Positions 15,856-58,800 of a DNA stretch of 64,000 nt are shown here, piece after piece (position 1 is the stretch's first letter; each line of letters starts with the position of its first letter). The notes under the pieces are model-generated. The model had not been told where the DNA came from. It worked only from the letters and a program-made list of their open reading frames with translations, and searched no databases. The stretch lies in assembly GCA_903813345.2 (NCBI GenBank), contig CAIIXF020000006.1, positions 8,048,989 through 8,112,988 of the forward strand, read 5' to 3'. Source of the DNA: Owenia fusiformis (lineage: Eukaryota; Annelida; Polychaeta; Sabellida; Oweniidae). The position numbers were made by a program, and so were the translations under genes.

Positions 15856-15916
15856 ATTCCTTCGTATACAAAGAAGTTACAACAACTGGGCTAAAAATCT
15901 AACAAGTACAAGAAAT

Positions 15917-17479
15917 ATGGCTGTAAACACCCAAATAGCCCCAAAACAGATTACAACATTTGTTGTATATGACCTTGAAACTACTGGGTTTCAAGATAGG
16001 CCTAAAATTACAGAAATGTCTATGATAGCAGTCCATCGCAATGATCTGTTGAGTGACACAAGAATTGGATTACCAAGAGTTCTAAATAAACTCACCATAT
16101 GTGTTTATCCCATGAAGGAAGTTTGCCCTGGAGCTGCTGATGTCACAGGTATTGCTAGACTGAAATTTAAGCTCCAAGGTATTGAAAATGGTGCAAATGT
16201 CCTTCACCCCGAAAAGATTGTTTTTCTATTACAACTTTTAAATAGTACTATTTATTCATATTGGTCATTGGATATCAGAACCGACTTAGAACAAAATTCC
16301 TGCAGAAGAATGGTTGATTTAGCTCTTGCATGGGGTGAGAGATAAAGCAGCTTTGGAGTTAAATTGAGCAAAGTTCTTGATATATTCTCTTGGTCAACTG
16401 TGATGCTCTGATTCTTTACCAAAATTAGATGTTCCAACTCTGTGACTATATGAATGGCAAGATCAAGTCAAATTGAAACAATGACCTAAGTACTTACATG
16501 TTGGTACACATTCATTCTCTTTCTGATAGGCTATCTGTTTCTGTCCTATTGTACAACCCTTGCTTTGCTGTTTTCAGGTCTTCACAATGATAATCTGTAT
16601 TTCCAAAAGGATTTTGATGAAGAATCTGGTCAGATGATTATGTCCTTTCTCCGAAGACTGGCTCCACCTGTCTGCCTTATCGCACATAATGGTAACTCCT
16701 ATGACCATGGAATTCTAAGAAATGAATTGGATTTCTCAAAGACTGGAATTTCTGGTGACCTTTTATGTGCTGATTCGTTACCTTGTTTTCGTCAGCTTGA
16801 TTCACCCCCTAAATTAAATGGTCAAATTTCCACACCAGATGGGGCTTGTGCTGTAGATACTCCACCTATAAAAGGTATTGTGGATCAATCCCAGAATGAA
16901 ACAGGGCCAACAAATGGGCTACAAAGAAGTAACAGTGTTAAGCGAGAGTTGTTTGGGGTTTCTGCCACAGCTTCTAGTATGGATGAAATGAATGATTTCG
17001 ATTGGTCAGTAGATGTAACTGATGAGGAACTAATGACTATTAATTTACGAGACATGTGCAATAGCAATAACAACAATGAAAATAAAAAACATGAAAATGA
17101 CGGCCAATTACTTTCTCAAAGCCAAACGGCAATGAAATTAGAAAAGGTTCCCACATATCCTGGGACTCCAAAACGACCAATTACAACTCCTAACAACAGC
17201 CAGGAAACTCCTGTTAAAAAGACGAAAAAGTTGTCGTATAAACTTGGTGAAATATACAAAAGAGAGCTTAAGAAACCATTGCTAAACGCTCATTGCGCTG
17301 AGGATGACTGCATCATGTTGTTGGAGATTATGCGCAAAAGAGCACCATCTGTGTGCGAATGGATGGACAATCATGCTGTTCCATTCATCAACATTCAACC
17401 ACGGTATAAAGTAAGGTACCAAAGGAGCCCATTGCCCACCGGTCAGTTCCCATTCCAAGGCAGTTCAAGTCAAAATTAA
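15917..17479 (+). CDS. TREX-like DEDDh 3'-5' DNA exonuclease
   Basis: Two coding exons, 15917-16148 and 16578-17479, join in frame (G|GT) to give 377 residues. The exon before the ATG starts at an acceptor at 15855/15856. The catalytic set of a DnaQ/TREX exonuclease is visible: Exo I VVYDLETTGF (D19, E21), Exo II LIAHNGNSYDHGIL (the D), and Exo III HCAEDD (H and D), as in TREX HTAEGD. The segment after Exo II, CADSLPCFRQL, matches the TREX CVDSI region. Unlike TREX1/2, an acidic, low-complexity insert of about 130 residues precedes Exo III, ending in a basic PVKKTKK stretch that could be a nuclear signal. No C-terminal membrane anchor is seen, so it is unlike the ER-tethered TREX1 of mammals. 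Likely role: degradation or proofreading of DNA 3' ends. Confidence 0.87.
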
Positions 17480-34348: not shown

Positions 34349-37300
34349 TCACAACGTTGAGAAACTTATATTTCCAAATGCGTCAACAGGTGTGCCTTCA
34401 TCTATGGTTTCAAAAGGCATGCTTGTTCCATTAAATATATGACTGAAACTAGTGTCATGCAAATTCAAACTATCGTTAAGCAATTCATTATTTTTCAATG
34501 GCGTTATCCCAAATATGTCTGTAATCATATTTTTCTCAGCCTCCTTACGTCGAGCTGATCCTGGTGTTCCCTTTGTTCCATTAGTCCTGACAGGTGTTAT
34601 CCTGAAGGGTGTCCAGTTGTAACCGCCACTTTCTAATAAATTACTGGTATTCCTAAGTGGAGTTAGATTGGCAATTGGAGAACACCAATTTGGGGTTAGC
34701 ATGAGGCCTTTGTTTGGTGTAGACGTAGCCATATTTTGGGATTTCGGAGGAGTCTTTAACAAGTCTTGATTTGGTGATGAATTTGTTTTCACCGCTGCTG
34801 CACATATATTATTAAACACTTCTGTGAATGATTCAATATTTTCAGATTCATCACGTAGCTTTTTATGTGTACTTTTTCTCGGTGCTCTTTTCTTATATTT
34901 TCTTGGCTTTGTGATAAGTGGTTTACTTCTATCGTGACTGGTATCACTTGCCTTTGATTCAATACCCGAATCCGGTGAAATCAGTGGTTCTGTTGATGTC
35001 ACAGGATCATGTGACCTGTTTGGTGTATTCTCGATCCCAGCATTCAACCATGCTAGACTTATTATATCCTTAGTAAGGTTGTGACTGAGTCGTGATTTCT
35101 TGGATCCTGGGGGAGAGAAGCTGTTGTCTTGAACATGTGAACCTGAAATTAAACAGTAAATATATTTTATTGTCATCTCACAATAAGAAATTCATTTCAT
35201 GTATTATTGCCCATTCTACCAAAGGCGCTCCAGTGATTTTCATCAAAATCACCTGTCTTCAGTTTATCTTTGGCATATGACAAAAATTCTTCGAGAACCA
35301 ATCAAAACTTCTCAAAACTGGATCACTATTGAACATGTCCTCTAATTGTCATTAAGTAAAGCTTTCAATAGGCTATCCAGACATCTTATTTTACTTGAAG
35401 GTTTAAACTCTCTAAAATCTCTAAGGTCAGCGTACCCACCTTGTGTAGTGTAACTATTGACTGGGGCATAGAAAACTGGGAGACCAGCAGGCAGAATAGA
35501 TGGGTCTGAGATTGGCATGAGAGTGTACGATTTATCACTATTTGGCTTCGGCAGTATCGGCTTCATCTCATCTACATAAGAGAAAACATTTAACGATAAG
35601 CATTAGCTCTATTTATTGTCACTTTTCTAGCGAACATTACTCTGTATTTATGAGAATACATCTGGCTGATCAGTTGGTGGAAAAGGCTCATCAAAATTGT
35701 GAATTTCAAAATAGAGTTGTAAAATCAGGATGCCCATGTGAAACAAAATTAGGCTGATCTCTAAAACTGGTTGGTGCTATTCTAAACTGAGAGAAGGAAC
35801 TTGAGTGGAGGTATGACTGATTGATATTGTCTGGGGAGAAGAAATGCACTTCATGGGATAACATATACAAGGCATCGACATGCCAAATGTCACCACCTGC
35901 CATTTGTTACAGATGCTGACCACTAAACACCAACTTCAGAACAATGTCAACAAAAAGTTGGAGACTAAAACAATATGTCACTACTTCTGGAGGTGACATA
36001 ATGACAAATATAGGTTCTTTTTAATTACAAAACAACTTTGTAAATCTTACTTGTTTGATTGAACGAAGTGTTCACTGGGACTGCTGACTGAAAGTTATTA
36101 ATACTCAACAATGGAGTGCCTGAAAGTGGAGTTCCGGTCAAAGTTGTTCCAGACAACTGACTTCCTTGGAAATGAGCTCTGGATATTTGGAGTCCAGAGA
36201 CAGGATTTACAGTCTGTATTGGCAAAGTTTTTGGTTTTGGTATCAGCAATCGCTGCGAATGTGTCTCCACTGGTGTCACTACCTTTGTTATCCTGGCTGA
36301 AATTTAAAATAGTTTAAAACTATTATGATTTTGATTAGAATTTATTCATGCTGTTAATAACAAGTGTGCAATTTTTCCAAGACTTCTCATTTTTCAGAAA
36401 ATAATTTTTGTTTCTTTATCAGTTTATCCTTTAATTATTTGACCATTGATAGTATAGCTACAGGTTAAAATTTGCTTCACTTTATATGTAGGACTTTTGA
36501 TGACTTACGATTTCGAGGTTTTTTAGGTTTTGATTTGATGGCCTTACAATGCCATGGAGGAACCCCATTATTCTTTTCCCGTTCAAGGAGTTCCTTGTTA
36601 AGCATCCAATAGGAAGACTGCTCACCCTTCTGCCCTTGAACCCGCATGAAAACATCATAAAGTGACAGGTTGTGACGCACAGAATTCTAAAATGCACAAT
36701 ATACATTTGTATTATATAATTGCTAGAATCCCAGATTGGTTTATGGCATACCATGTGATCAAGAATACCACAACAATACAATAAACCATACAATAAACGA
36801 GTATTTGTCTCACCCTCTGAGCAGCACACTGAGAATACACTCTACATTATCACTGAAAGAGCAACAAGCATGTATTGCATGAACTTATGAATGAAACATC
36901 AACTAACATTAATAAATGGCTCATATATTTAGATTTAAAAGGGATATCCCATTGTACATGGTTAATTTACATAATTTTGAGTTCTATTCCCTTCTCAATT
37001 CTGAAGCAAGACATTCTATGTTGATTTTTGACTTTTCATCTGAACTACAGTAAAAGGATCATTGGAGAGATCAAACATTGATCAACAAGGAACATGTATA
37101 TATGCAAAAATGACAAGACGTCACCATGTGGTTTCAATTACAAAATTTCTGACAATTGTTACGGACTTCAACACTCATACCAAACACAAGACAAAAAAAA
37201 TACACTGACATACCATGGATGAAGACATAAAACTTCAACAAGGAATTTACATGCAAGATGTCACCACCTGCAATTTGTTGCAGATGCCGACTGCCAAATG

Positions 37301-40300
37301 GCAAACACCAACCACTGAACACCATCTTCAAAAAATTGGATACCATAACAATATGTCACCACTTGTGATGGTGACATAAAAATGTATCCTTACTTTCCAG
37401 CCCTCTCCATTAGTGTGTTTATAGAATGGGAACATGTCTTCAATCCACTTGTAGATTTCCCTGAGTGTCAACTTCTGTGCAGGGGAACTACCGATTGCGA
37501 TCTGAATGAGGTGAAGGTATGAGTAAGGGGGCCGTTGCCTTGTGCCACACTCAGTTGCCACCTAAAATCATGCAAAATTAAACATCCATTTAACATGCAC
37601 TTAACTCAGTTGCCACCTAAAATCATGCAAAATTAAACATCCATTTAACATGCACTTAACTCTGCAGCCTGAGACGCTTGACCTTTTTTCAAAATAACCA
37701 GGATTGTATAATGTCTCCAGAACATCATGAAAATGTGTCAGGATTAAGCTGATTCCAGGCTGTATTGGCATTGCCAATTTGACAAGTAGACCCTGAAACT
37801 GATATTGGTCCTAAGTCAGACATTTTCAGTCAAATTTTAGCTGAAAATGTCCAGCGTTTGCTCTATCGTTACTCTTTATTTGTTGATCAATAATTTCTAC
37901 TGGATTTGACAGATCTTTAGATACTTCCAAAGATTCCAACCAAAAGTTTTTGTAAATTGTGTACTACTGCCATCTATTTATCAACTATTTAGCAAGTTCT
38001 CTACTAGTATTCAAATGAATAAAGATTGACACAATTCCCTACCCTCCTAATATCCACCAGGCTATCAGTGTTATGTAAATCAAGCTGGAGACGATCGTTG
38101 GCCTGCTGCATAGTGCTTGGGGGTCCAGTGAATTCTGGGAGACCTGGGCCGCAACTCGATATCACATTGTCACCAGTGACCCTGTTTACCCATCCTAGAT
38201 TGGTCAGAGAGTCATTGTGACCTGGAAATAGATGAATGTATTGTTAGTACCTCAATTCTGATTGGTCAAATACATATATGGTCAATATTTCTGACTTGTC
38301 AACCATACAATGCCTTGCTTGCAGTCTTGCGTTGAGATATAAAATTCAGAGAACAACAAATAAATTGAGGTATTTCTGGTATTTTTGTGTTTGGTCAAGA
38401 GTAAAAAGAGTCGAGACCAATGGGAACGTTTGAATCAGTAATGTTTTCAATGAACAGAATTGGATTTCTTGTACTTACTTGTAATTATGATTAGAACATT
38501 TGCAATCATATGACAACAATCTTATGTAAACTTATGCCAGCCTCTAAACTCACTGTGTGTTTAATTTATTTCCAACCTGTCCTATATACCAACATCTTGT
38601 TAAACCTACTTATCAGTCTTATGTAAGACTTTTATATACTATTACTTTAAGTTCAGTATTTATATAAGAGAATGACTCTTTATGAGAGCTGCAAAGGATG
38701 GGGATGTGTAATCTATTCATTTTGAAAAGATATATACTATAACCCCTTTCAGGCTAGACCAAATGGTCTTTCCCTGCATGATTTATAATAGAGGTTAGAT
38801 ATCAGCACTTGAATATCATATTACAGTTGGTGGCAACTACTGTCAACCTTTCTGTGGTAAGCACTGCTTGGAATAGTTTGATTTTACTACTTCTTCAAAA
38901 GAGAGCTTCGTCTACACTCTGAGTGATGATCATTTGATCTAACATTACTTATCAATTAGAATACTGAGAATAGTCAATAAAAATCCAGCACCCAATCAAA
39001 GTGGAATCTACTGAATTTTATGCTTTCATGTGTATGTATGTATATGTACATTCATTCATTTTATCAACTGTATATAATTTTTCCTATTCAGAGCCTACTA
39101 TAGGCTCAGACATTCAGGGGCTTGTAAAGGTGTTCTTATAATAAAAGGACTTGTAATCGATAGGAGATAGAGATAAGAGATAGGATCTGTCTTAACTTTA
39201 AAGTGGTGTCTGCATATACAAGTTTGACTGTACAAGGTCACATATTTCAGAATTTCAGACAGAATAATACATAGAGCTGTTTATAACAGTATGCAATACA
39301 AGAAGACTATCCTGCAATCAGAGCTAACTGGTTCACATCACTGGTGGTTTGTTTCTTTGAGTTCAATATTTGCAGAATATTTGTGACTCCTGAGGCTCGT
39401 GAGGAAAGACAGATGACAGTTGAGCATTAACAATAAATACACTGTACATGTATCATAATAATACATACAACTGTAAGTGAATAAATCTCAAGAAGGAAAT
39501 GTAAATACCAATTCTGGGCAGAGAAAGTAGAGATACAAGTGAGGTAGTGACATCTGAATGTAGCCACTGGTAAGAGATACTATACATCTGAGCAATGAGC
39601 ATAGTCAGAAATATGTAAAGTGCAAGTTGTAATTGTCAATTGATTTCTGAACAAGGAGCCCCAAGGATAATAAAGCTGACTACTGAATATGGACAAAAGC
39701 TGGAACTAAAATCAAGAAAAACAAAACAATAGGAATTAATGTACTATCAGTCTTTAGTGATCCATTGTTGACAACTGGAGTAAATTACAAAACTACTTAA
39801 CCAGTTTAAACACAACAAAATATGAATCATCACGAAGAAAGTGAGAATGAAAGTCAATCAAGACACGCTGATGAAAAGGCAGCAACAAGCCAGAACTATA
39901 TTGGAGAGAGAAATTTCAAATGTGATGTGTGTTTAAAGATATTCAATCAAAATTCTGGACTCAAACAACATTATAAGATCCATACTGAAGGCAGAAATTT
40001 CAAATGTGACATTTGTTCCAAAACATTTAAACAAAAACCGTATCTCATAAACCATTTTAAAAGTCATACTGGAGAAAGAAATTTCAAATGTGAAGTGTGT
40101 TTTAAGACATTCAGCCAAAAAATAAACCTTGCACAACATAATAAGATCCATACTGGGGAGAAGAATTTCAAATGTAATATTTGCTTTAAAAGATTTAGTG
40201 CAAATGGCGACCTAACAAAACATTATAAGATCCATACTGGAGAGAAGAATTTCAAATGTAATGTTTGTTCTAAAACATTCATTAAAAATTATGGGCTTAT

Positions 40301-43300
40301 ACAACATAATAAGATCCATACTGGAGAGAAGAATTTTAAATGTGATATTTGTTTCAAAACATTTAGACCTTATAACCCATTCTTACATCCATACTGGAAG
40401 GCAAGAGGTGAATTTCAAATGTGATGTGTGTTTCAAGACATTTATCTACAAGTCTAACCTTACATACCATTATATGATTCATACTGGAGAGAAAAATTTC
40501 AAATGTGATATTTGCTTCAAAACATTTAAAAGTAAACATATCCTTATAAACCACTTTAAGATCCATACTGGAGAGAGGAAATTCAAATGTGATGTTTGTT
40601 TAAAGGTATTTATTACAGCCCATCACCTGAAGAGGCACTGTAAAATTCATACTGGAGAGAAGAATTTCAAATGTGATGTTTGTTTGAAGACATTTAGTGA
40701 AAAGTATTGCCTCATATACCATTCAATGATCCATACTGGAGAGAAGAATTTCAAATGTGATGTTTGTTCAAAGACATTTAGCCGAAAGCCGTACCTTGTA
40801 TTACATTCAACAATCCATACTGGAGAGAAGAATTTCAAATGTGAAATTTGTTTGAAGACATTTAAACGGAAATCTCACCTCAAAAACCATTCTAAGATCC
40901 ATACTGGAGAAAGGCTTTTCAAATGTGATGTGTGTTTAAAGACCTTTAACCAAAAGTCTAATCTCACACAACATTCCAAGAACCATACTGAAGAGATGAA
41001 TTTCAAATGTGACATTTGCTTAAAAACATATAAACGACAATCTGGCCTCATAACCCATTCTAAAAGTCATACTGGAGAGAGGAATTTCAAATGTGAAGTG
41101 TGTTTAAAGACATTTATTCTAAAAAAGAGTCTAACAATACATAATAAGATCCACACTGGGGAGAGGAATTTCAAATGTGATGTTTGCTCTAAAACATTTA
41201 ATTCAAAGGGTGACTTAACAAGACATTATAAGATCCATACTGGAGAGAGGAACTACAAATGTAATGTTTGTTCCAAAACGTTCACTACAAATTATGTGCT
41301 TACCATACATTCTAAGATCCATACTGGAGAGAGGAATTTTAAATGTGATGCTTGTTCTACGACATTTATTACAAAGCCTGCACTTAAAAGACATTATAAG
41401 ATCCATACTTGAGAGAGGTATTACAAATGTGATGTGACATTTTACCCAAAGTCTAACCTCATACAACATTATAAGATACATTTTGGAGAGGAATTTCAAA
41501 TAGGTTTTAATTGTAACTGATCATCTACAGGGTGACCCAAAATGAATGCAACCCATAACACAGTTAATAAAATTAAAACTAATAGTGATTCACCTTTTAT
41601 TTTGCACCCAAATGAAGCTGAGATGATAACAACCAAGTTCTGAAAGTATTGTTTCTGGGATCCAAAATAGTTCATTTTTATGGCCTAGCAAAAAATATGT
41701 TCGATTTGACCAACTTTATGTTTCAGCCATTCCTGAATGTGATGCACAGAGTTGTCAATTAGGAGGACACAATTCCTTTCTTTGAATATCTCTGATTTAT
41801 GTAGTAATTGCTGGTCGTTAGTCTCTGATTGTCTGGGTGTGGTTTTCATGGACATTGTCCTTCATATAACCCCTCGAATAGAAATCTGAAGAGTTTAAGT
41901 CGGGTGATTGTGGGGTCCACCCAGGATCATATCTCATACTGATCAATCAATCTTCAAACCCACCCATTCTAACTTTTTGGTTTCAAGTGTTTGGACTTGC
42001 TCTATCCTGCTGGAACCATTGTTCTGACCCTGAGTGGGCCCCACACTCACCTGACTTGAACCCCCCCCCAGGTTTCTATCTGTGGGGTTATATGAAGGAC
42101 AAAGTTTATGAAAACCATAAACAGAGACTAAAATCAACGATTACTACCAAGATCAGGGATATTCAAAGAAAGGAATGTGTCCTCCTAATTGACAACTTTG
42201 CATTTAGGACTGACTGAAACATAAAGTTGGTCAAAGCGAACATATTTTTTGCTAGGCCATAAAAATGAACCATTTGAATGCCTGGGACAATACTTTCAGA
42301 ACTTGCTCAGCTTCATATGGGTGAAATTAAAAGGTTTATCACTATTAGTTTCAATTTCATTAACTGTGTTATGGGTTGCATTCATTTTGGGTCACCCTGT
42401 AACACATCAGATACTCACCATTATTACCATGAATTGAAAAATGTAGAGTGATACTTTATTATTCAACAAAAAAAGTCTTAATCATAGCTAAGACATGACA
42501 GATATGACAGCTTGATACTTTATGTTTAACTACGTACATACAGGTAAGAAAAATTCTGACAATTTTTCATGAAAATATCTCAAAATAATGACCAGTTTTA
42601 TGAAAGAATAATTTACTTCTTTCCAGTTAGATTCTTCTTGAATTAAAAATCATTTAATACAAGGTGAAACTAATATATATTGGCACAAGAAAATACATTT
42701 TAACTCCACTAAATGCACTAAATGCTACATCCTTGGATAAGATTCTTTGAATCTTTTCTACTCCCAGGCCCTTGCATATCATTCAGCAAACCGAATGCTC
42801 GTTTTTGGTGTTGCTCACCGTTTAGTATAAAAGGCGCGATCCCAGAATATTACTCAGGTTAAAGTCACTGCGTAAACACCTTTGCCTGTGTATGTAGGAA
42901 TAGTAAGAGTAAACATTGTCACACTTTTATATAAAGGAGATTTTTGTGTTGACAAATCAATTTCACACTTTATGGGTGAAGTTTCAAGATTTTCTATTTG
43001 TAAATTAATAAGAAAAATTGACATCTAGATTTACCCATCACATATTCAGGTATTATTAGCACAGAGCATGGTCTTATGAAATGATCCTGTATATGAAACA
43101 TGGCAGTTTGGATTAGTACATGGATTTATATTGGCTGATGCAGATGCATCCTTTGGATAATTCATTCTCCTGATGTTTATAGAATCATTGTAAAACGATT
43201 ATTTTATCTTCAAGACAATTACAATAAACTGGATATACAAACTCCTTTAATTTCTTAAAAATAGACTGATCCAGTGGACTCGCCTGGAGCTGCCATATTG

Positions 43301-46300
43301 TTTTTATTTTTTATATGGGAAGCTTATCGTAATCCTTTAAACACCATCAGCATGTGAATTATGGGATGATATAAACAGACTAATTTTAAACTTATTTTGC
43401 ATTTAAAACATGTTAATATTGTAATTTTATATGTTGTACAATACTGTAAAATTGACACTAAAATGGTGGCCATTTTGATAATCGGCTTTAAAACTTACAT
43501 GGGGAATATATGTATAAAATATGAATGACATTTTGTCAACATACTGTGTACTATAGTTTCATTAAATAAAATTAATAAATAATAGGAGAACATGTACTTA
43601 CCTGTACTTGAGGTAGCTGCAGAGACATTGGTGTTTTCGCCAAAACCTGCCCTGTAAATAGTTGATATTTAGACTTTATAAAGTAATATTCAAACAAAAT
43701 AAAATGTATTGTTTTAATGTTATATTATGTATACAGTAGCCTATCTGTTTTAGTGCGTGAGACATAAATAAATATATATACTACAACTACGACGTCCTAT
43801 AATGTGCAATTTTGCCTGATAAATAAAAACTCTTTCAATCCAGTGTAGTGCCCCTGGGCTGGTATACATTTTCATCCATTGTTATTATGTTATACCACAT
43901 GTACGAGCCATATTATGCATTAATTAAAACTTTTAGTTTAGTGCCCAATGGCACTTAAACAGGTGGGGCTCAATTTGTGTAATTTTTCAGATGATAGTTA
44001 CAATCAAAACATGAATACTTGATCTCAATTAAAATTCTTAACATTATTTTTTTAATCTCAACAGCTTTTTAACATTAAACAGTACTATGTACCAGTATAT
44101 GAAATTAATTAATATATCCAAAAGTACCGAACGAAATTCCCGGGGATTGCTGATGAGCGGGTGATATATATATAATATCTCTTGCTAACCTCAGCGGGTT
44201 ATATATCACCCGCTCACCTCAGATATCAATTATATTCCCACGTGTTATTTACCTATGACACTACTAAGTATGGGATAATATACAATTATTGACCTCTCCA
44301 GAGGTTAACTGTCAAAATTATATCCCGAGGCTGTAAACCGAATGGAGAGGTCTATAATTGTTTTGTTAGTCCGAAGAATATCTTAGATTTTTCTGACCCT
44401 TGAAGTTGACTTGAAGTTGGATCCCGACCCTCGAGACGTTCATGTTGTATTTCAGAATATCGGCAGTAAGTTCACTCAATGGAGTCAAATTACTCTCCTG
44501 GGCGAAGTCCACTAAAAGCTTTGTACAAAGTTTTAGATTTTTCTTCGTATTTTGACTGTCTTTACTCTCTAAGAGACTAATAATATCCTCATCTTCAACA
44601 TTTTTGAAACGGCTAGTGCTAGCGGCGGCCATTTTATCGTCTGATAATGACGTCATTTTAGTGGAATGCTGGGAATATTATTCATCGGCAATGCATTGTG
44701 CGGTGTACAGTTAAAATTATTCACCGCTCATTGACCAATCAAAATCGAGTATTTCAACTGAGGTACTAACAATATAAGTTATTGAATGATTTGAAGTGCA
44801 ATACAGGATATATTCTGCTCAAGAAATTCTGTATTGAAATGAGATGAAGTAGAGTGCCAATACAGAATATCGAGAGCAGAATATATCCTGTATTGCACAA
44901 ATTATTTTATAACATTTTTATTTGGCTAATACATTTTACCTAGGAGATAATCCCTGGGAAATATTTTGTTTTCTCTGTACTGAGATTGTCCCCTCCGTAC
45001 CAATAGTTTCTGTATTGCTCCGAAGATACTCAAAGGGGACAATCTAAGAAGCAATACAGATTGGTACAGCACAAGAACTGACCAATCAGAGGGCTTCATT
45101 TTACAGATCATACAATAGATTAATATACTACCACAAACAGCACTAGGTAAATGGGGTTATTGCATTACATTTTAGTTATCATTCTCATTAGGGGGTACAT
45201 CAATTTTTTAGAAGGAAACAACATAAATAATCAATATTCAAATACAATTTTAGATTTTAGAAATTAGAAAAGGAATAGGATTATATTAGACTATAATGGT
45301 TGGAATCAATTGTTTTGAGACAATTTGGTACAGCAAGGATAGGGGGATGTTATTCATATCACTCTAGTGAGTCAAGTTGGATGAGGGCCAATGATTTGAT
45401 CAGGTATGTTCAATGATATTTTTTATTAGATCTTTTATAGATTTCAGTGATCTCCCCAGCATTTAAGCAAGTGGGCGCAGGACCCACCTGACATTTTGAA
45501 AATAGGCTTGCACCCACCTGAAAATCCATTTGCACCCACTTGAAAATGAGAAAAATCATGAAAAATATTCTGACCAATGAGAATTTTGCACCCACTTGAG
45601 AAAAAATCCTGTGGAGATCACTGGATTTTGTATGTCCAACCAGCAAATGAAAAATGGTCATATCAATTTTCATGGGTCTGAATATTTACATGGCATAATA
45701 CAGGATTGGTGGAACTGGTTCGATCCCTAGAATATTTTTTCTATTATTATTCTCATTTTCATAATTCTGACCCAAGTTACTCAAAATATTTTGATTTTTT
45801 CTTAGGGTACTGGTGGAACAATAAAATTAGTGGTAAAAATAAAGTATGAACACATGTGAGTTTTTCTTTGCTTTTTCAGGAAAGTATCAATACATTGTCT
45901 TCTTTTAGAATATCTAGTAAGAGGTCAATGGCAATCCGGTGTTGTTGAGAAACTTGGAGAAGAAATTTGGAAAATATATTTATATTTTTAAGAACTCAAA
46001 GTGAATGCACTCTAATTCAGCACTAATTCATATGCAACGTGAGAACACATAGATAGCCTGGGTTCATGGCTTTATGTTTTAAAGTATATAATTATTATGT
46101 ACCTTGGTTCCTTTTGTTTTTGATGTGGTAATACAACAGTGAGAGGAGCACTTGTTCTCACAACTTCAATAGGTGTCTTGGGTCTGTCAAGATTTCGAGA
46201 AACACCTGTTTCCTTTGATAATTTCCATGGATCGTGTGACAAGCTCTCAAGCACTCTGGCAGCTGTAGTACGATTATTCACATTTGACGTAACAATCACA

Positions 46301-46575
46301 ATCTTTTTGGTTGCTGCAGATTTCTCAAGAAAAAGTTTTGGAGTCGAAAGGTTTAGTTGATCCGTCTTGATGGATGTAAATGGACCAGAGGGTGAGAAGG
46401 CTTGATTTTCTGGGATCTGTTTGATGATAATATGTTTGACATCGTCAGTATCTTTTACAGTGTCTGTAAAAGTATAGTTCACTGGAGACACTCTCCCTGT
46501 GAAGTTTTCACCCAGTATACTTGTTGGGTTTACCAATGTGTTATTTGGGGCATTCGCAGATTTAGACATTTTCAT
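34349..46575 (-). CDS. FOXM1: Forkhead transcription factor FOXM1 (FoxM), 739 aa
   Basis: Eight coding exons on the minus strand, 46575-46103, 43651-43602, 38221-38043, 37561-37394, 36686-36509, 36296-36051, 35571-35440 and 35142-34349, all phase-consistent, give 739 residues (human about 760). The forkhead domain spans about residues 244-330: [25 protein letters not shown], then [13 protein letters not shown] (recognition helix, 291-299) and SSYW. FOXM rather than another class is shown by DSLTNLGWV (178-186; human N-terminal NSLSNIQWL), [14 protein letters not shown] (434 onward; human MKPLLPRVSSYLVPI) and KIVIVTS near 91 (human KFILIS). The C-terminal exon is rich in TP/SP sites ([28 protein letters not shown]), as expected for CDK-regulated FOXM1 activation. 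It drives G2/M genes in vertebrates. It is divergent from RHNO1. The ATG may be at 46575 or 46569. Confidence 0.94.
35868..36003 (+). mobile_element. Dispersed TGTCACCAC element, copy 2
   Basis: In a FOXM1 intron. Contains AAATGTCACCACCTG, TTGTTACAGATGCTGACCAC, AAAAAGTTGGAGACTA and CTGGAGGTGACATAATG. It is close to copies 3 and 5. Confidence 0.75.
37240..37385 (+). mobile_element. Dispersed TGTCACCAC element, copy 3
   Basis: It ends nine bases from the minus-strand donor side of FOXM1 exon 37561-37394. Contains GATGTCACCACCTGCAATTT, GTTGCAGATGCC, AATATGTCACCACTTGTG and ATGGTGACATAAAAATG. Confidence 0.75.
38222..39821. other. FOXM1 intron, right of exon 38221-38043
   Basis: AT-rich. No supported feature before the zinc-finger reading frame. 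Confidence 0.6.
39822..41412 (+). pseudogene. C2H2 zinc-finger array gene with a frameshift
   Basis: Intronless plus-strand array nested in the 5.4-kb FOXM1 intron. From the ATG at 39822 come a short N-terminus and five intact fingers of the type KCDVCLKTF-x5-L-x2-H-x3-H joined by IHTGEKNF linkers. Finger 6 ([11 protein letters not shown], about 40344-40369) lacks 11 bases between its Phe and Leu, shifting the frame. The old frame stops at 40424. Fingers 7-18 continue unbroken in the +1 frame from 40369 to the stop at 41412, where the linker glycine codon GGA has become TGA. A decayed 19th finger follows to about 41500. No KRAB, BTB or other effector domain is seen. Poly-zinc-finger proteins usually bind DNA. 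It could be a pseudogene, an allele or assembly error, or a shorter 12-finger gene. Confidence 0.7.
41526..42399. mobile_element. Foldback element made of two inverted mariner-type transposase ends
   Basis: The termini are CAGGGTGACCCAAAATGAAT and its exact complement, flanked by TA on both sides (41524-41525, 42400-42401), as in Tc1/mariner transposition. Both arms, about 400 and 370 bp, carry the same transposase C-terminus in opposite orientation. The right arm (plus, about 42020-42217) reads [20 protein letters not shown]; the left arm (minus, about 41935-41825) reads [19 protein letters not shown]. These match the SPDLTPxDFFLWGYLK block of IS630/Tc1/mariner transposases that contains the last catalytic acidic region. 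The unique centre is about 95 bp. Neither arm is a complete gene. Confidence 0.85.
42402..43601. other. FOXM1 intron between foldback and exon 2
   Basis: No exon or repeat that I can support. Confidence 0.6.
44157..44361. repeat. Two short palindromes
   Basis: GCGGGTGATATATATA with TATATATCACCCGC (44157-44215), and AATTATTGACCTCTCCA with TGGAGAGGTCTATAATT (44283-44361). They lie just beyond the stop of the Crypton-like fragment and may mark its element boundary. Confidence 0.55.
44366..44656 (-). pseudogene. Truncated N-terminus of a Crypton-like tyrosine-recombinase protein
   Basis: A 96-codon minus-strand frame begins after an ATG in a YY1-like AAAATGGCCGCC context. It contains [16 protein letters not shown] and [17 protein letters not shown]. 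The S-R-F ... LLE-x-KDSxNTKK pattern is the usual beginning of Crypton-type and Crypton-derived animal proteins (ZMYM/KIAA1958-like). The frame ends soon after, before any catalytic recombinase region, so it is a dead fragment or a MITE-like derivative. It lies in the same strand sense as FOXM1, in its first coding intron. Assignment is from motif memory only. Confidence 0.5.
44796..44898. repeat. Short palindromic element
   Basis: GTGCAATACAGGATATATTC is answered by GAATATATCCTGTATTGCAC, followed towards the centre by further pairing. The total is about 103 bp. A related but imperfect sequence with CAATACAGA words is at 44985-45070. Confidence 0.75.
45318..45450 (+). repeat. Dispersed repeat copy B (pair with 15.5 kb)
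   Basis: Shares TTTGGTACAG, GGATAGGG, TCACTCTAGTGAGTCA, TGGATGAGGGCCAATGATTT and GATCAGGTA with 15475-15610. It is inside the first FOXM1 coding intron, in antisense orientation. The family is unknown. Confidence 0.65.
45451..46102. other. FOXM1 intron
   Basis: A cysteine/proline-coding duplicated motif (GCACCCACTTGA, GCACCCACCTGA) occurs at 45475-45600. No exon is supported. Confidence 0.5.
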
Positions 46576-47234
46576 TCCAGTTTTTAATTCAACAACGGAT
46601 CAAAGAACTATATGTCATTAAGTTCACATCTATTATTCATTGTGTGCCTACACTTAGTACACTACATTGTATTTGTCAACAAGATCTGATGGATCTATTG
46701 CAGCTGCATCTGAAAAGTATACAAAAACAATTTGTACAAAGGAAACACAGCAGAAAAGCAGCAAAATATGTTTCACATGCATCTAGAATTTTTTAAACTA
46801 AACTAAATTGTTTTGAGAATCGATAGCTCTAAAGATTTTCCGCAAGATGACTACTCCAATTTGGAACATAAATAAATGACAGGTGGATTTGCTGAAGTGA
46901 GGATTTCGCATGTCAAAAATAAGAGAATTTTCAAGAGGCCATGCATCAGTGGGTAGGATTATACAAAATGTAAAATATACAAAAGTTAAGGGATGTGTAT
47001 CTAGACAATATTGGAAATTATGGGCTTTCAGACGACCATGGTTAGGAAATGGTGATAGAAAATCCATGTTTCATTTATTTTTGTTCCCCACTATATACTT
47101 GGTACAAGAGTTGTAGGGTACATTTTTACTGTACCGTAGTCAAAATGGAATTGTACGGTACTGTTGGAGAATGGCTGTGTATAACCTACCTGGTGGATAT
47201 TTGACAGATATGACAACAAAATATACCCCTGTTG
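46576..47234. other. FOXM1 upstream / 5' UTR intron
   Basis: No clear feature. A non-coding FOXM1 exon may be joined across this region from 50141, but no strong acceptor immediately before the ATG is obvious. Confidence 0.4.
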
Positions 47235-48720
47235 GAGACCCTATCTATTGCAAGACTTATGCCTGGCACAACCGTCACTGTTTTTAAGTATCGGAAGGAT
47301 CCTGCCATGACTGTGGTAGTGTTATTGTGATAGCATGATATAACCGTGACAATGCCATATTATATTGCATTGCCTGTCATGACCATGGCAATGTTAAAGC
47401 CTGATATGACCGTGACAATATTGTAAGGCCTGACATGACCGTGGTAATGTTAAAGCCTGATATGACCGTGACAATGGTTGCAAGGCCTGTCATGTCCGTG
47501 GTTCTGTTAAAGCCTGATATGACCATGACAATGCTATACTATATTGCAAGGCCTGACATGACCGTGGTATTGTTAAAGCCTGATATGACCGTGACAATGG
47601 TTGCAAGGCCTGTCATGACCGTGGTAATGTTAAAGCCTGATATGACCGTGACAATGGTTGCAAGGTCTGTCATGACTGTGGTAATGTTAAAGCACAATAT
47701 GACCGTGACAAATGGTTATATTAATTGACATTTAGTAGCATGAGAATACTGTAATGAAAAATTTCATTGTTTATCTACCTTAAATATGTAAATCTAGACT
47801 ACTACTACATGTACTACTACTTTAACTCATAATTCATTTCCACAAACTATAATTCTAATCTCATTCAAGAACGTGAACATTGTCACGGTCATATCAGGTT
47901 TTAGTGTTATCGTGAAAGCCTGGTATAACCGTGACAATGCTATATTATATTACAAGGCCTGTCATGACCGTGGTAATGTTAAAGCCTGATATGACCGTGA
48001 CAATGCTATATTATATTCCAAGGCCTGTCATGACCATGGTAATGTTAAAGCCTCATATGACTGTGGCAATGGTTGTAAGGCCTGTCATGACCGTGGTAAT
48101 GTTTAAACCTGATATGACCGTGACAATGTTCACGTTCTTGAATGAGATTAGAATTATAGTTTGTGGAAATGAATTATGAGTTAAAGTAGTAGTAGTAGTA
48201 GTCTAGATTTACATATTTAAGGTAGATAAACTATGAAATTTTTCATTACAGTATTCTCAAGCTACTAAATGTCACTTAATATAACCATTGTCACGGTCAT
48301 ATCAGGCTTTAACATTACCTCGGTCATGACAGGTCTTGCAATATAGTATAGCATTGTCACGGTCATATCAGGCTTTAACATTACCACAGTCATGACAGGC
48401 CATGCAATATAATATAGCATTGTCACGGTTATACCAGGCTATCATGATATAAGTACAGATAATGACTGCTGAGAGAGAGAGAAATAAATAAATAATATGA
48501 ATGTAAATATGAATAATGAATGACACTTTGAAAATCTGCGCAACAAGTGAATAAAGTACAAGAGAAAGTACATAGTGAATATACAAAAAGCACAAGAGAC
48601 TAACTGCCGAGGAAAAAGCGGCTTATGCAACACAACAACAACAAATAACACAATGGTCATGGCAGGATCCTTGCGAGACTTAAAAACACTTAATAACATG
48701 GTGACAGTTGTGCCAGGTTA
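47235..48720. repeat. Large foldback with tandem GATATGACCGTGACAATG repeats in both arms
   Basis: The left end (CCTGGCACAACCGTCACTG, TTTTTAAGTATCGGAAGGAT, CCTGCCATGA; 47271-47325) is the complement of 48656-48720. Inward, the left arm (47330-47700) has tandem units of about 50 bp (GCCTGATATGACCGTGACA and AAGGCCTGTCATGACCGTGG); the right arm (48290-48440) has their complements. A 200-bp unique inverted pair (47690-47895 and 48110-48305) and a second tandem core (47895-48115) complete the structure. Open frames of Met-Thr-Val repeats are by-products. Confidence 0.9.
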
Positions 48721-48723
48721 CTC

Positions 48724-49272
48724 CCGTCGAGAGCTACTTAGATTTTGAAAGTATAGCTCTCTATCGCTAGAATCAACAGCTTAAGAATCCTGACTTCAAA
48801 GAAAATTTCAGGGAATTCAGCTGACTCATGTTGCACATTATATACCTGAAAATGTATCCTACATCGCCATCTTTCATTCAGCTCAACTATAGAACGTCTC
48901 ACTGCCCTATGTATCGATCAGGACTTCATTTTATTGGTCGTGTCAAAAGTTTTGGCCAGGTATATTCAATATGGCGGCTTGACGTTTCCCAAGTTGCGCA
49001 TGCGTCGATAGTATTTCCGTTTAACCGCCATATTGGAAATGGGTATCGAACAATAAAAGATTAGAACTCCTGATCGCCATAGAAGCACATCCGCGATCCT
49101 ACATGCACGGGGAAAGTAGACACATATGAGCCCATAATGTAGGCTACAGTTTGAGACAAACAGCAAGCCGTTGAGTGGCGCTGATCAAAATAAGATGTCA
49201 CAATTCTTCAGCTGGGAGATCCTCACGATGGAGAGCTATACTTTCAAAATCTAACATGGTAGCTCTCGACGT
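48724..49272. repeat. Palindromic element centred on an NRF1-like site
   Basis: CGTCGAGAGCTAC and GATTTTGAAAGTATAGCTCTC (48725-48763) are complementary to 49231-49272. A second, inner pair is GATCAGGACTTC with CAATATGGCGG, against CCGCCATATTGG with GAACTCCTGATC. The centre, about 48993-49006, is TTGCGCATGCGTCG, close to the NRF1 consensus GCGCATGCGC. A further pair beyond the limits (GAGACCCTATCTATTGCAAG at 47236 against CTTGCAACAGATAGGGTCTC at 49292-49311) encloses both palindromes. Confidence 0.75.
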
Positions 49273-49312
49273 GAGTAAGTGCCAGGCAAGTCTTGCAACA
49301 GATAGGGTCTCT

Positions 49313-50140
49313 TTCTTTCTATCGGTCTCCCCCTTGGCCTTCCCAAAATTCTTAATTTAAAATTTAGAAGTTCAAATTGTGCACGTAATGATGGATTAGG
49401 CTATAGACCTAAACAGTATAAACCACACTTAACCTTTTACATTTCTAATATAAGTTTACTCATGGGCTTTCAAATAGAAAAAAAGCAGTGATGACTGTCA
49501 CTGTGTGTCATTGATGATTGTCAACGTCGGATTGCTAAACCTCATCCATTCTGAGCAATGTTGACGGACAAATATTCAATAAAATTAAGAAAAGTGAACG
49601 TGTCATAGTGTTAATTCTGTTAGTTTGTATCAATATTGAATATGTTTGGACTAAGGTAGCACAGAGACGTTCTTTGAAGGTAAAATGTTTGCAAAATAAT
49701 TTTCGAACTTACCACTTCATTCAAAATTGAAATTGACCAATCAGAATCTAGGATTCAGGTTCGGAACCAGTTCCGGTTTAAAAACTTGTTACGACAGCAT
49801 TGATTGGCTTAATAATTTAAAAGTGGTGTGATTTGACAAATAGAAAGTCATTTAACAAATATGATATGGAACTTGTTAAAAATTGTAAAAATCAAAAATA
49901 ATATTGAATTCGACAACATTTGTGTAAGGTAAGTCTTTTAATTCACCGTGTACCCATATAGAGAGCTATTTACATTGCTTACATTGTTACCACACTTGAG
50001 ATTGACGTCCATGGAGTAGCCAATGCATTCTTGCCAATCTGAATCTTGATGTAGCCTGTAATCTAGGCTACAGTGGGGATCATAAAGAATTGCAAAAGCT
50101 ATGAAAATTACATGCTGTCGCACATGTAATAAATTCTTAC
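49313..50140. other. Intergenic DNA, FOXM1 side
   Basis: AT-rich. No supported gene. It probably belongs to the FOXM1 5' UTR intron if the donor at 50141 is used. Confidence 0.4.
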
Positions 50141-50492
50141 CTCAGTGTATTCAGTGCTCTATTTTCTAAGTAAGTCCAAATATAGTGGAATTTGTGTCCC
50201 TAATGACAAATAAGAACTTCAAAAGTTGAATTGGATATTCACATGTTATGCCGACTCTTCAAATGTTGAGGTGATTTTGTCGCCCGATTGCGCCAGAACG
50301 GAGGATTGGCTCCCTGAATGCAACATGACACGTGCCAGCTTTCAAAATGCTGTTCCGCCATTTTGAAACCTGTCATGAGTAAATACGGTTAACTGATGTT
50401 GCATTCTGGGAGTCAACCGTCCTTGGATAACAAACATGGCGATTCATGAAAGAATTCATTCGATTTGGTAGTGATTTATCATTAATTTGCAG
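50141..50492. promoter_or_regulatory. Candidate FOXM1/RHNO1 bidirectional promoter
   Basis: A minus-strand donor CTGAG|GTAAGA (exon end 50141) and a plus-strand donor TTTGCAG|GTATGA (exon end 50492) face away from each other 350 bp apart, as expected for two non-coding first exons. Between them is an imperfect mirror structure. A left CTCCCTGAATGCAACATG (50310-50327) and a right complement of ACTCCCAGAATGCAACA (50397-50414) resemble the ZNF143/Staf core CCCAGAATGC. TTCAAA (50341-50346) and TTTGAA (50362-50367) resemble opposed CHR cell-cycle elements. An ATTGG box (50305-50309) and an E-box CACGTG (50329-50334) are also present. Function is inferred. Confidence 0.55.
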
Positions 50493-51091
50493 GTATGAAG
50501 CTTTGGATTCATTTATTGTGCTACTTTAGTGAACTGGAATTGTTTTTCTACCGCTTGGGAGAGTTTGAGACACGAAACTTGGAAATTAGCTCATTGTGAC
50601 AACTTGTGAACGTTGAGTTTTATTTTTGTCCCCCACTATACAGGAAAAATATTATAGACAAGACATGAGAGGCTCATCCGACCCCCTCCCCCTTCAACTT
50701 GAACCCCCTTTCTTTATAAAAACTAACTCCCACCCGGGAACAAGCCCCTTTTCAAGATCAAAGATCCCAAGTCCGGGAATTGGAACGAAGCCCACCCAGA
50801 GAGAGGACTCTTTTTTTGTGCGAATAATGAATCACACGTTTATATTAGCTATTTAATGATGCATGTACAATATTCTGTTATTTGATTGGTTTGTTGGAAC
50901 TAATTTTAGTGTGTGAACCTCCCCCTTCGTCTCAAACCCCTCTTTACGTTATAAAATGACCCCCCTTCCCTTGGTAAATCCTGACTATAACCTGAAGGAC
51001 AAGGTGAAGCATGGCTGAAGTTATTCGAATTGACAAACGGAAAAAATTTGAATTTGATTGCGATCATATCTTTTTCAGACGACCCTCGATA

Positions 51092-53391
51092 ATGCCACCA
51101 AGAAAACGTAAACGCAAGGATTCTTCTACCAGCAGGAAGCCACCCCTTATATTTACAGAAAGTCCGATAAACAAACGCCACAACCTCCCTAGTCCAGTCT
51201 TTAGTGCAGACTTTCCTATTCAAGCTAGTGTTGTACACATAGATGACAATCTTCAGATTCCATGGGTAAGACGTATATATATTAGGGGTGCCTCGATATG
51301 TTATATAACTAGTATTTCAATGTCACATTTTGTGTTAATGATTCCATACACAATGCATTATTAGACTATAATTACCAAGGTTTATGATATTTGCTGATGT
51401 GTATCAAAAGACATTAATTATTGGGTGCATTGGGAGAATGTTAATACCATTATGTTTATGTTATTATGACATACACATATTTATACCACTCTAAGTCCGA
51501 TAACAGTTGTATAACATGGGTCTATAACAACGATATACAATGGAGAGTGGTATATCGTCATCGTATACAACTCCTCCGTATACACTCCAGCGTATACCAC
51601 TGTAGAAGTGCATTCTGGGAACTAATGAATATTGACCGAAGAACGAGGTGTATGTTTTGTTACACATGATTTCCTAGAATCAAGTGACGTCATAAATGGT
51701 TCCCACATGATTTGCTAGAATCAAGTGACGTCATAAATGGATCGAGAGTTGGCTATGAGATATTTTTATGGTTTTTATAATTGTTATGATTGTAATCAAC
51801 TGTAATTGAACTTAGAGTGGCATAATAAGATTATATAATGGTTCATTCTGTATATCGTGCATTTTATACTCTCGTGAGAATATAATATATTCACTCGTTC
51901 GCTACGCTCACTTGTGAATATATTATATACTCACTCGAGTATAAACACGATATACAGGATGAACCATTATATAACCTCATATTATTAACCAGCCACAAAT
52001 ATACACATACTACTTAAAAGGCGAGGTAATGAATGAGGAGGGGCAAGTTGGCAAGGTAATTAATGAGGAGGGCTTAGTTGGTAAGTCAATCGCTTGGTTC
52101 CCAACAGGAATCTGATCAGTTGTCCTGTATTAGTCAGTCTTTTGTGAAGACACGGCACTTGGTCAAGCAAAGCTTGTGCATATACTTGTACATGCAGTAT
52201 TGTTTAGCTCAATGACAAATTGGTAAATAAAATAAGGCTGTGGTTCTTTCATTTCAGGTTTCACCTCAGTTCCGTGGGAAAGCATTAACAATGGAGCATG
52301 GTATGTCTAAGAGGACAAGACGATCCCGGAAACCTTCAGGGCCAGGCCCAGTAACCAGAAAGAGAAACAACTCAAAGGAAAACCTTACCAGCAAGCCAAG
52401 GCCTCTACCTAAAGGAATGATACCTTTAGCTTTTATTGATAATCCAAAATCCCTCGAAACGATTTCCATCATCGAAGATGTATCGATCGAGGATTGTGAT
52501 AGCGAGAAAACACAAACTCCAAAGACTAAATCTGGCGCAAATGGGATTCATATGTCTCGTTATATATCCCCAAATGGAAATATTATACCTTGTATTGGAG
52601 CAAGGGTAACTCGTTCAAAAACTAACAAAATATGTCCAGTTAATGCGAAGAGCAATAATGAGGAGAATGTTATTCAAAATGATGGAGATATCAGCACTGA
52701 AGATATTGAAAGTGATACTGCAGATGAAATCGATACCAATAAAACCAAAAAACCTTGGGCTTTAAGACACAATAAATCTAAACCAACCACACCATCTTTA
52801 TCCCAGCTCATTCGTACACCTCCTTATATGGGCATATATACAAAAACTAAACCCAGAAATGTTCAAGGTGAAATTGAAATCACTGATAAACCACCTTTTA
52901 GTGATGATAGTATAGAGGACATTGAGGTGACCACTCATACTACTGATACAGACAGTTCTCCATTATTTATGACGCAAAAACGCCCAAAAAGAAGAACTAA
53001 ACAAGGCAAACGTTTATTCCAAAATTCAAGATCAGAATTGTCTAGTAATGACTCTTCAATAGAAAATAAGGATTCAGATGCTGATCTTCCCAATATCAGA
53101 TCTAAAAAGAAAACATTAACTTTGAGAAAGATAAGCTTTATAAATAATTCAACAAATGAAATTCATAATCAGTCGATCACAGATATCGAAACAGACAGTG
53201 ATGGTTTAACTCCAAGGCGTAGATCTTTACGATTGCGTCGTAAATATTTGCAATTATTTTCAAAGGTGATTGGCTCTCCTCATACCCCTAGTCAACGTCC
53301 ATACAGCAATATTCTTGCCCATGACACCCCAGAAATACATTATGGATTGTCTTATCGGGAAAAGCAACTTTTGGGATTGATTGACATTTGA
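51092..53391 (+). CDS. RHNO1: RHNO1 (RHINO), RAD9-RAD1-HUS1 interacting protein, 435 aa
   Basis: Two coding exons, 51092-51265 and 52258-53391, phase 0. I place the start at 51092 because an acceptor (ATCTTTTTCAG) ends at 51078 and the resulting MPPRKRKRK-RKPPLIF opens like human RHNO1 (MPPRKKRRQ-KAPLLF). Across the splice junction the protein reads IPWVSPQF (56-63), equivalent to the human SWVSPDF motif that contacts the 9-1-1 clamp. Near the C-terminus HDTPEIHYGL (413-422) followed by a basic segment matches human KDTPEDKYGI. A KEN box lies at 98-100, and the middle is long, polar and Ser/Thr-rich, making the protein almost twice the human length (238). In vertebrates RHNO1 links the 9-1-1 clamp and TOPBP1 to ATR signalling. 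Overall identity is low; the call rests on motif order and on its FOXM1 neighbour. Confidence 0.82.
51663..51740. repeat. Two direct 37-bp repeats with CRE sites
   Basis: CACATGATTTxCTAGAATC and AAGTGACGTCATAAATGG occur at 51663-51699 and 51704-51740, so a perfect TGACGTCA is present twice. They lie in the RHNO1 intron, about 400 bp after the first coding exon. Confidence 0.8.
51822..51986. repeat. Palindromic element in RHNO1 intron
   Basis: ATAATGGTTCATTCTGTATA with TCGTG is answered by CACGA with TATACAGGATGAACCATTAT. The inner arms ACTCTCGTGAGAATATAATA and TATTATATACTCACTCGAGT also pair. The total is about 165 bp, MITE-like, with no coding content. Confidence 0.8.
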
Positions 53392-55823: not shown

Positions 55824-58800
55824 TCAGCTAGAAGCATTGATGTCAATTTGTTCCCTAACATTTGGACTGTCCATGATAGAGTCCTGACGTACGAGGACTG
55901 CTGTGCGTGCATCATCTTGATCCCTGTCCCTGTCATATAACACATGTACTACATCACCACAGACATTCAGCAGACACTGGGCCTGGAATAAGAACATATA
56001 AAGTAAAACCTGTGTATAATAAATATTTCTTTGCTGAGAAAAAGTGTTCAGTGATGGTAGGTGTTCACTACAGAGAGGTTAATTCAGAAGTCAGTAGAGC
56101 ATGTTGGTGACATAAAAATGCTCAAAGTTTGTTATAATGGAAGAAGAATCATGATTTCTTGAAAATATTACCTGATTTTTATGTGGGTTGTCAAGTAGGA
56201 CACATTCTGTCATCTTGTACCCCACAAGTGCATTGCCCCCCAGGGCTGCGACATGTGCACGGGCTATGGCCATCACCTCTGTTATGAAACTCTGCACGAA
56301 ACCACTAAGACCTCCACTCTGTAAGATGGAATACACTGTTAAATGCATCAGCCCAAAATTATGAAATATGATATCATAGTTTAAAGGCATGTATTCAAGA
56401 TCCAGATTCAAATGATGTTTTTTATAAAAAAAAGGTTTTTGATCATTACACCATTTGTCCAAATGAGTAAACGCAAGTGTGATACACTTTGTTTATCAGT
56501 CAAGTTGATTGTGTCAACGAGTTGAATAAGTACAACAACTCATATACTCATATACTCGAGATGTTTTGCTAAAGCTCAAAAATACTTTCAAAAATTGTTC
56601 AGAAGTTTGTTTCTTGGACACATATCTTTAAATCTCTAAACACGTTCATGAGCAAAATAACCTAAAAATACATTTAGGTGGAAAGAGAGAGAAATAAACT
56701 AAACAACTTTCTTGATAGCTACTATAGATTGTAAAAGCAAGCATTTAGTTCTCATCAGAGAGAAATACATTGAAATAAGCATGATATGATGAGCAATCAG
56801 AGAATGAGCATCTTTGGAAATTATCATACGTACATGTATACATATAAAAAAGATACATGCATAACAATAACACACTTTACACCAATTAAGGTTTAGAAAG
56901 TTAAAATTGCTGATTAATTAAGACCTTACAGGGTTGGGACAGCAATTATAGAGTGTAAAAGGTGGAAGCAATATTTTAATTAAAAAAAACATGTAATCCT
57001 TATCATCGTAAAAATACCAGAAGAGATATTTAAAAACCAGATCAAAATTAGATTTTATAAAAAGTTACCACCAACTTGTATTTAATGCACCATCCAAAGG
57101 TTTGTGTGAGACCCCCATACAGGAATGGGTAGAGTTTCTGGCAGAATGAAAATTAGGCTGTCAAATAGGATAGGGAGAGCAATATTAGCCAGGCAAGTAT
57201 AGTCAAAATACCTATTTTGTTAAATATGCATATCAAAAGTCCCTACTCCCTGAATGAAGTACTGTCAAAATCTCACCCACTGGGACAATACTGCGTGTTC
57301 AATTTCTGAACCTCTTAGCGGGTCACCAAAAAACCTTTGAATGACGCATTACCTTTAGGAGGCCTATTAGGACAACATTTGGACACATGTTGCAGTAATA
57401 TCCATATCTGTAAAGCCTAGCAATATTAATACCAGATCCTTTTATGAACAATTGCTTGTTGAACTAAACAAGGAGTTTGCTTAAAAATACATTAAAATAC
57501 AAAGATGACCTTAACTGTACTGGCATAATTTTTTTAACCAATAGAACAATAAAACTTATCATTAACACATATACAAGACTCACACCATTTCATACACATC
57601 CAAAACCACTGACAAAATATATGTGTACGCCAGTCTCTATTGGATGGATGTTACATATAATTTTTCTTTCACTGGGGAGGGCGGGGTAGAAACTTTGAGA
57701 GATGCAAACTTTGATTTAACATATTCCTGGAAGAAAGAGGGATGGGGAAGAGAGCAGAATTAAAACTTGCTCTATGCCTCTGGACATATGTACTTTTGCA
57801 CCCTTTTACAGAATCTGATTTTCACAACATGATACATTCTACCACATGCTGTGTACTTGCACACACAACAAACAAACCACAAACCTCCCACTCTTCTTCT
57901 GTTATCGACATTTTACTAGGACTACGTCTATTAACTTGACGGTGTAATACTGGCCTCATTTCTTTTGGTTTAACCTTGAGCTTACGGCTCCCATAAAATG
58001 AACGGAACTTAGGGCTCAAAGGTGTCACCACTTTACCCTAAAGCAAGCAGAAATTAGAACTGCCAACTGGTTGTTTCATGGAAGTACTATTCAATCCATT
58101 TTCAAAAGTAAGAATAGGGTTTTTTAAACAGGACATAAAGCTTAAAGGCATATTTTGCATATTTTCCACATTTTGTGAGGAAATAAAGTCTTACGTTTGA
58201 ATTTAATAGTACATTGTATTTCCAATGGATTGATAAGTACTTTATCTTTATATTTTTTTTATCTTGTTTGTATAGCATGATACATTCATTTTTATAGAAG
58301 TGTCGCCATCTTTAAAATCAAGAGTAATTTAAAAATGTGCATGTACTACTAATGATCTCTGAACTTCAGATGCTGTTTTCTATGTGAGTTATTTTTTCCT
58401 TGGTTTAATATTACTGCAAATCAAACTTTGTATCATATTTGAGTGTGTGAGTAACATGTTTCAATGATTAATTTTCACCTTTTTCTTCTAAATTAAGCAT
58501 AGTGTGGCTTTCTAAGGCCTTTTTGAAATTTTTGGTTAGCAATATAGTGAATTTCAATTTTGGTTCAGGATTCCTTCCAAAAACAGCTCGAGCATGCTTT
58601 AAATTCTCAGATATCAATATTTTCAGGGATCTAAGGGTGAAAACTATATCGAGCAATCAATTTCAGTTTGAAGTGAAATTATGAGTTGCCATGCAACAGT
58701 GATGACGGATCAAATGTTAAGCTATTTGTGTCCACAAAGCTGGGATACATGATGGTCATATTTAAAAATTGAAAATACATGGAAGAGTGAAATCAGTGCA

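Follow-up and report, generated by a model that had tools for sequence, protein, structure and literature searches.

A divergent FOXM1–RHNO1 gene pair in the annelid Owenia fusiformis, probably inherited from the bilaterian ancestor

A window of 64,000 nucleotides from the genome of the annelid Owenia fusiformis (contig CAIIXF020000006.1; gene and feature coordinates given in bp refer to this window, and genome-wide searches covered 498 Mb) contains FOXM1 (minus strand, 46575-34350) and RHNO1 (plus strand, 51092-53391) as divergently transcribed neighbours, both genes having been rebuilt from their splice sites. No recognisable protein gene lies between the two start codons (46576-51091), and the adjacent divergent arrangement is confirmed as real in this genome, in agreement with an original prediction made from the sequence, which had placed the two genes head to head with no gene between them. 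For an unlinked, genome-unique gene the chance of falling less than 5 kb from FOXM1 is ~2e-5, and ~5e-6 with the divergent orientation included. The best overall explanation, to which we assign a probability of about 85%, is that the locus represents, in a spiralian, the divergent FOXM1-RHNO1 pair of vertebrates, and that both descend from the bilaterian ancestor.

In human, FOXM1 and RHNO1 at 12p13.33 form a bidirectional pair with a shared promoter and transcription starts ~150 bp apart; they are among the most correlated bidirectional pairs, and cancer work proposes that they cooperate functionally (PMC8104967). Both are also among 210 DREAM-CDE/CHR targets (PMC4705690). The Owenia locus resembles the human one in the presence of both genes, their adjacency and their divergent orientation; it differs in that the human pair has a CpG-island promoter and closely spaced transcription starts, whereas 4.5 kb of repeat-bearing sequence separates the Owenia start codons. 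What is new here is the age and the isolation of the pairing, the biology of the proteins being already known from human work. No report of a FOXM1-RHNO1 pair outside vertebrates was found in the open-licence literature that was searched, and earlier notice elsewhere is possible. The foxM gene of O. fusiformis has been described as a maternal gene with broad expression in the blastula (PMC9539403), which matches the present locus as a single FOXM-class gene in a spiralian; that paper deals with FOX genes, and the passages of it that were found mention neither RHNO1 nor the pair.

The RHNO1 gene and protein

RHNO1 has two coding exons on the plus strand. The first (51092-51265) encodes residues 1-58, MPPRKRKRK...IPW, and includes the RAD9-pocket motif K16PPLIF21; the second (52258-53391) runs from VSPQF to the stop codon and carries a KEN box at residues 98-100, the segment KGMIPLAF, and ILAHDTPE at residues 410-417. 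The donor of exon 1 is ATGG/GTAAGA and the acceptor of exon 2 is TTTCAG/GTTTCA (slashes mark the exon boundaries), such that the intron falls between W58 and V59. Joined, the exons form an open frame of 435 residues with a long acidic/basic middle that is probably disordered, and the junction itself creates WVSPQF.

The joined protein matches the Pfam RHINO model (PF15319) with 44.9 bits and an E-value of 2e-11 over its first 104 residues, ~20 bits above the curated cut-off of 25 bits, and the N-terminal 162 residues by themselves score 45.2 bits. The C-terminal 66 residues by themselves match RHINO positions 188-213, collinear with the N-terminal match (E 0.11 among 24,736 models). When the 498-Mb genome was searched with the RHINO profile, a single candidate was reported, exon 1 of this gene.

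The short motifs through which human RHNO1 contacts its partners are recognisable at corresponding places. Human K13, L16 and F18 sit in the RAD9 front pocket (PMC12907562), and this pattern is matched by K16-P-P-L19-I-F21; the RAD1-contacting segment 56-WVSPDF-61 (PMC10937111) corresponds to WVSPQF at residues 58-63; and human T202, the residue bound by TOPBP1 BRCT1, is preceded by hydrophobic residues at -5, -4 and -3 (PMC6175577) and corresponds to I410-L-A-H-D-T415-P-E, in which hydrophobic residues occupy -5 to -3 ahead of TP. Together with the KEN box, these stand in the human order (KPPLIF, WVSPQF, KEN, ILAHDTPE). For the second RAD9 motif of human RHNO1, K90-F96, a possible counterpart is KGMIPLAF, an approximate match with L and F in register and K one residue off. 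Among 200,000 shuffles, WVSP.F appeared in three and the C-terminal block in none.

These observations bear on whether the protein could instead be an unrelated basic disordered protein that acquired clamp-binding motifs by convergence. Its overall identity to human RHNO1 is low, its 435 residues are nearly twice the human length, and sequence searches of the PDB gave no match to an RHNO1 peptide; all of this would fit convergence. We nonetheless regard such an origin as very unlikely given the profile score well above the curated cut-off, the collinear N- and C-terminal matches, the four motifs in human order, and a neighbour and orientation that are the same as in human. The assignment of the plus-strand protein as an RHNO1 homologue, as originally predicted, is supported at the level of sequence by the profile, by the order of the motifs and by the genome search, in which the RHINO model reported no other candidate. 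The accompanying view of RHNO1 as a vertebrate protein agrees with the structural literature (PMC10937111), but homologues in metazoa have already been mentioned (PMC6175577).

A good acceptor-like TTTTTCAG (51060-51080) lies 13 bp 5' of the RHNO1 start codon, and upstream of that codon the frame continues without a stop as far as an ATG at 51012; the gene may include an untranslated first exon, or its protein may be longer at the N-terminus. Genes for RAD1 and RAD9 were found in this genome, on a chromosome other than that of the pair.

The FOXM1 gene and its forkhead

FOXM1 consists of eight coding exons on the minus strand with every junction in phase. The first (46103-46575) starts MKMSKSAN and is followed by an exon of just 50 bp (43602-43651) that restores phase between its flanking exons; splicing the first exon straight to the exon at 38.2 kb is out of frame, a difficulty that the 50-bp exon resolves. 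The third exon (38043-38221) contains an NDSLTNLGW block resembling the human NRD block, and the forkhead is divided between the fourth (37394-37561, running to GWK) and the fifth (36509-36686, beginning NSVRHNLSL). Three further exons complete the gene: 36051-36296, 35395-35571, which encodes MKPILPK and has an alternative in-phase donor that would end it at 35440, and 34350-35142, which includes the stop codon. A perfect 55-bp tandem duplication (37549-37662) spans the acceptor of the first forkhead exon and produces two identical candidate acceptors, of which only the downstream one enters the open forkhead frame.

The forkhead scores 100.7 bits against Pfam, and a PDB search returned human FOXM1 as the closest solved structure (93.8 bits), followed by the FOXA class (80.7 bits). 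In the reverse direction, the human FOXM1 forkhead matched the joined two-exon domain at this locus with 94 bits and a foxQ2-like gene with 84 bits; the match is reciprocal best among those FOX genes of the genome that entered the comparison. A foxQ2-like gene had appeared as the best human FOXM1 match when exons were scored one by one, an artefact of the intron that splits the FOXM1 forkhead. Genes of the foxQ2-like type occur in two tandem arrays in the genome.

Beyond the forkhead the resemblance fades. No Pfam model matched these regions of FOXM1, and they were aligned with human segments; on that basis the score of the NRD-like NDSLTNLGW block was reached by 0.8% of shuffles, that of the MKPLLP region by 3.8%, and that of the C-terminal activation block by 61%, which is indistinguishable from chance. 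The original assignment invoked the forkhead together with three FOXM-specific blocks; because the blocks are weak, the identity of FOXM1 rests on the reciprocal-best forkhead and the shared neighbour.

A large FOXM1 intron contains a C2H2 zinc-finger array of ~18 units in two overlapping frames (39810-41412, plus strand), which is either a nested gene or a pseudogene. It lies within the span of the pair and outside the interval between the two start codons.

Age of the pairing and the human neighbours

The genome contains one intact Hox cluster (chromosome C1, 17.97-18.47 Mb), which includes a Lox5 gene with a KLTGP parapeptide and two genes with UbdA-like tails of the Lox2/Lox4 type. No mitochondrial COX1 was found in the assembly, and the host was placed by these Hox genes. 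The Lox5 parapeptide and Lox2/Lox4-type tails are marks of spiralians (lophotrochozoans), which makes the host a protostome. The pairing that it shares with human then goes back to the ancestor of bilaterians, unless there were two separate origins. The prediction had held the pairing to be older than vertebrates; the Hox signatures bear this out and take it deeper, before the protostome-deuterostome split.

That the adjacency arose separately in spiralians and in vertebrates has some room in that a single spiralian genome was examined. With a chance of ~5e-6 per event for a position within 5 kb in this orientation, we consider a separate origin extremely improbable, and we infer that the linkage in the two lineages almost certainly has one origin, in the last common ancestor of bilaterians.

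TULP3 and TEAD4, which lie beside RHNO1 in human, have relatives in Owenia on another chromosome: Tub- and TEA-domain genes are on C11 (9.84-16.18 Mb, loci L026-L034), and the pair is on C6. Because of this, the pair appears to have persisted alone and not as a by-product of a larger conserved block. The Tub- and TEA-domain genes, together on C11 and apart from FOXM1-RHNO1, echo the human TULP3-TEAD4 linkage.

The spacer and possible shared regulation

The spacer between the start codons (46576-51091) is 4,516 bp long, and three repeat blocks fill ~2.55 kb of it, leaving 1,964 bp. One is a dispersed repeat resembling a miniature inverted-repeat transposable element (MITE), 562 bp in length (48718-49279), with at least 40 genome copies at 98-99% identity, an identical GTGCCAGG on each side and ends of the form TTACTC...GAGTAA; it is a young, recent insertion. 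A second dispersed repeat of 578 bp (50063-50640), also with at least 40 copies and at ~96% identity, has ends resembling CAGTGGGG...CCCCACTATACAG and contains CCAAT, TTTGAA and GGCGC, 450 bp from RHNO1. The third is a 1.4-kb tandem/foldback block (47279-48690) built of GGCCTGACATGACCGTGGTAATG-type units, whose arms reach 170 nt with 92% complementarity.

Two stretches that look like regulatory sequence fall within these repeats. The CCAAT, TTTGAA and GGCGC at 50.2-50.4 kb resemble a G2/M promoter with CCAAT, CHR-like and E2F-like motifs, and taken with a donor-like site at 50141 they would suggest that FOXM1 has its promoter and a non-coding first exon here. This reading was rejected: since 50063-50640 belongs to a repeat of at least 40 copies, its motifs are no evidence of a conserved promoter. 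A promoter-like stretch at 48.8-49.1 kb likewise belongs to the MITE-like repeat. The best candidate for a shared promoter is the low-copy stretch adjoining RHNO1 (50641-51091), which has a CCAAT (50885) and CHR-like TTCGAA and TTTGAA (51024 and 51047), motifs that are not above background. Should FOXM1 begin with an untranslated exon close to RHNO1, its first intron would contain the repeats, and a shared promoter could persist at 50.64-51.09 kb; a FOXM1 transcription start near 46.7 kb would rule this out.

Several points weigh against the pair being the spiralian version of the vertebrate one. FOXM1 is poorly conserved outside the forkhead, and this one animal genome was set against the published human pair. 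The 4.5-kb spacer has received at least two young mobile-type insertions as well as the 1.4-kb foldback, and it shows no clear sign of a tight shared promoter. No convincing excess of CHR or CCAAT motifs occurs in the spacer: in the 1.4 kb at 49.9-51.3 kb there are five CHR motifs against 4.0 expected and six CCAAT motifs against 4.2 expected. Co-regulation, which the original prediction had read from the pairing, is not supported by the sequence, given start codons 4,516 bp apart against a human transcription start spacing of ~150 bp, and young repeats between them; neither the repeat-laden gap nor the zinc-finger array in the FOXM1 intron had been mentioned there.

The long spacer, its mobile-element insertions and the lack of motif enrichment would be expected if the linkage were ancestral but passive, a slowly rearranging genome having never separated two neighbours that share no regulation here, and the chromosome-scale contigs and intact Hox cluster do suggest slow rearrangement. 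Passive retention must account for a pair that stayed while its surroundings were broken, with the TULP3 and TEAD4 relatives on another chromosome, and for the strong correlation of the human pair (PMC8104967); we regard it as possible but somewhat doubtful. Co-regulation of FOXM1 and RHNO1 in this animal is, by analogy with human, slightly favoured, and shared cell-cycle control from the intergenic region would be the most likely reason for the pair having stayed together.

The products of the pair most likely work as their human counterparts do. RHNO1 would be a largely disordered adaptor on the 9-1-1 clamp, with KPPLIF in the RAD9 front pocket and WVSPQF in the RAD1 groove; phosphorylation of T415 by a proline-directed kinase would allow it to bind TOPBP1 BRCT1, and by bridging 9-1-1 and TOPBP1 it would promote sustained ATR signalling and mitotic end-joining. 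FOXM1 would act as an S/G2/M transcription factor driving the G2/M programme. Whether selection has kept FOXM1-RHNO1 as an isolated divergent unit since the bilaterian ancestor, with the coupling of a G2/M factor to this adaptor being functionally important, we judge to be evenly balanced. If so, the selected unit has outlived both the dispersal of its neighbours and the entry of mobile elements into its spacer. With the predicted clamp- and TOPBP1-binding sites intact in a spiralian, this part of ATR signalling and mitotic repair would already have existed in the bilaterian ancestor. That the pair alone, and not its neighbours, is conserved on both sides of the deepest split among bilaterians argues independently that selection may act on the linkage itself, and embryos of annelids and other spiralians offer a simple setting in which this could be tested.

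Elsewhere in the window, open reading frames on the plus strand at 15827-17479 resemble a TREX-type 3'-5' exonuclease, the first piece having no Pfam match. Adjoining RHNO1 on the minus strand (55827-56492) are exons resembling C2CD5, of which a 133-residue piece is without a Pfam match. An exon of a universal stress protein (Usp) is present at 29996-30301, with an E-value of 3e-15.

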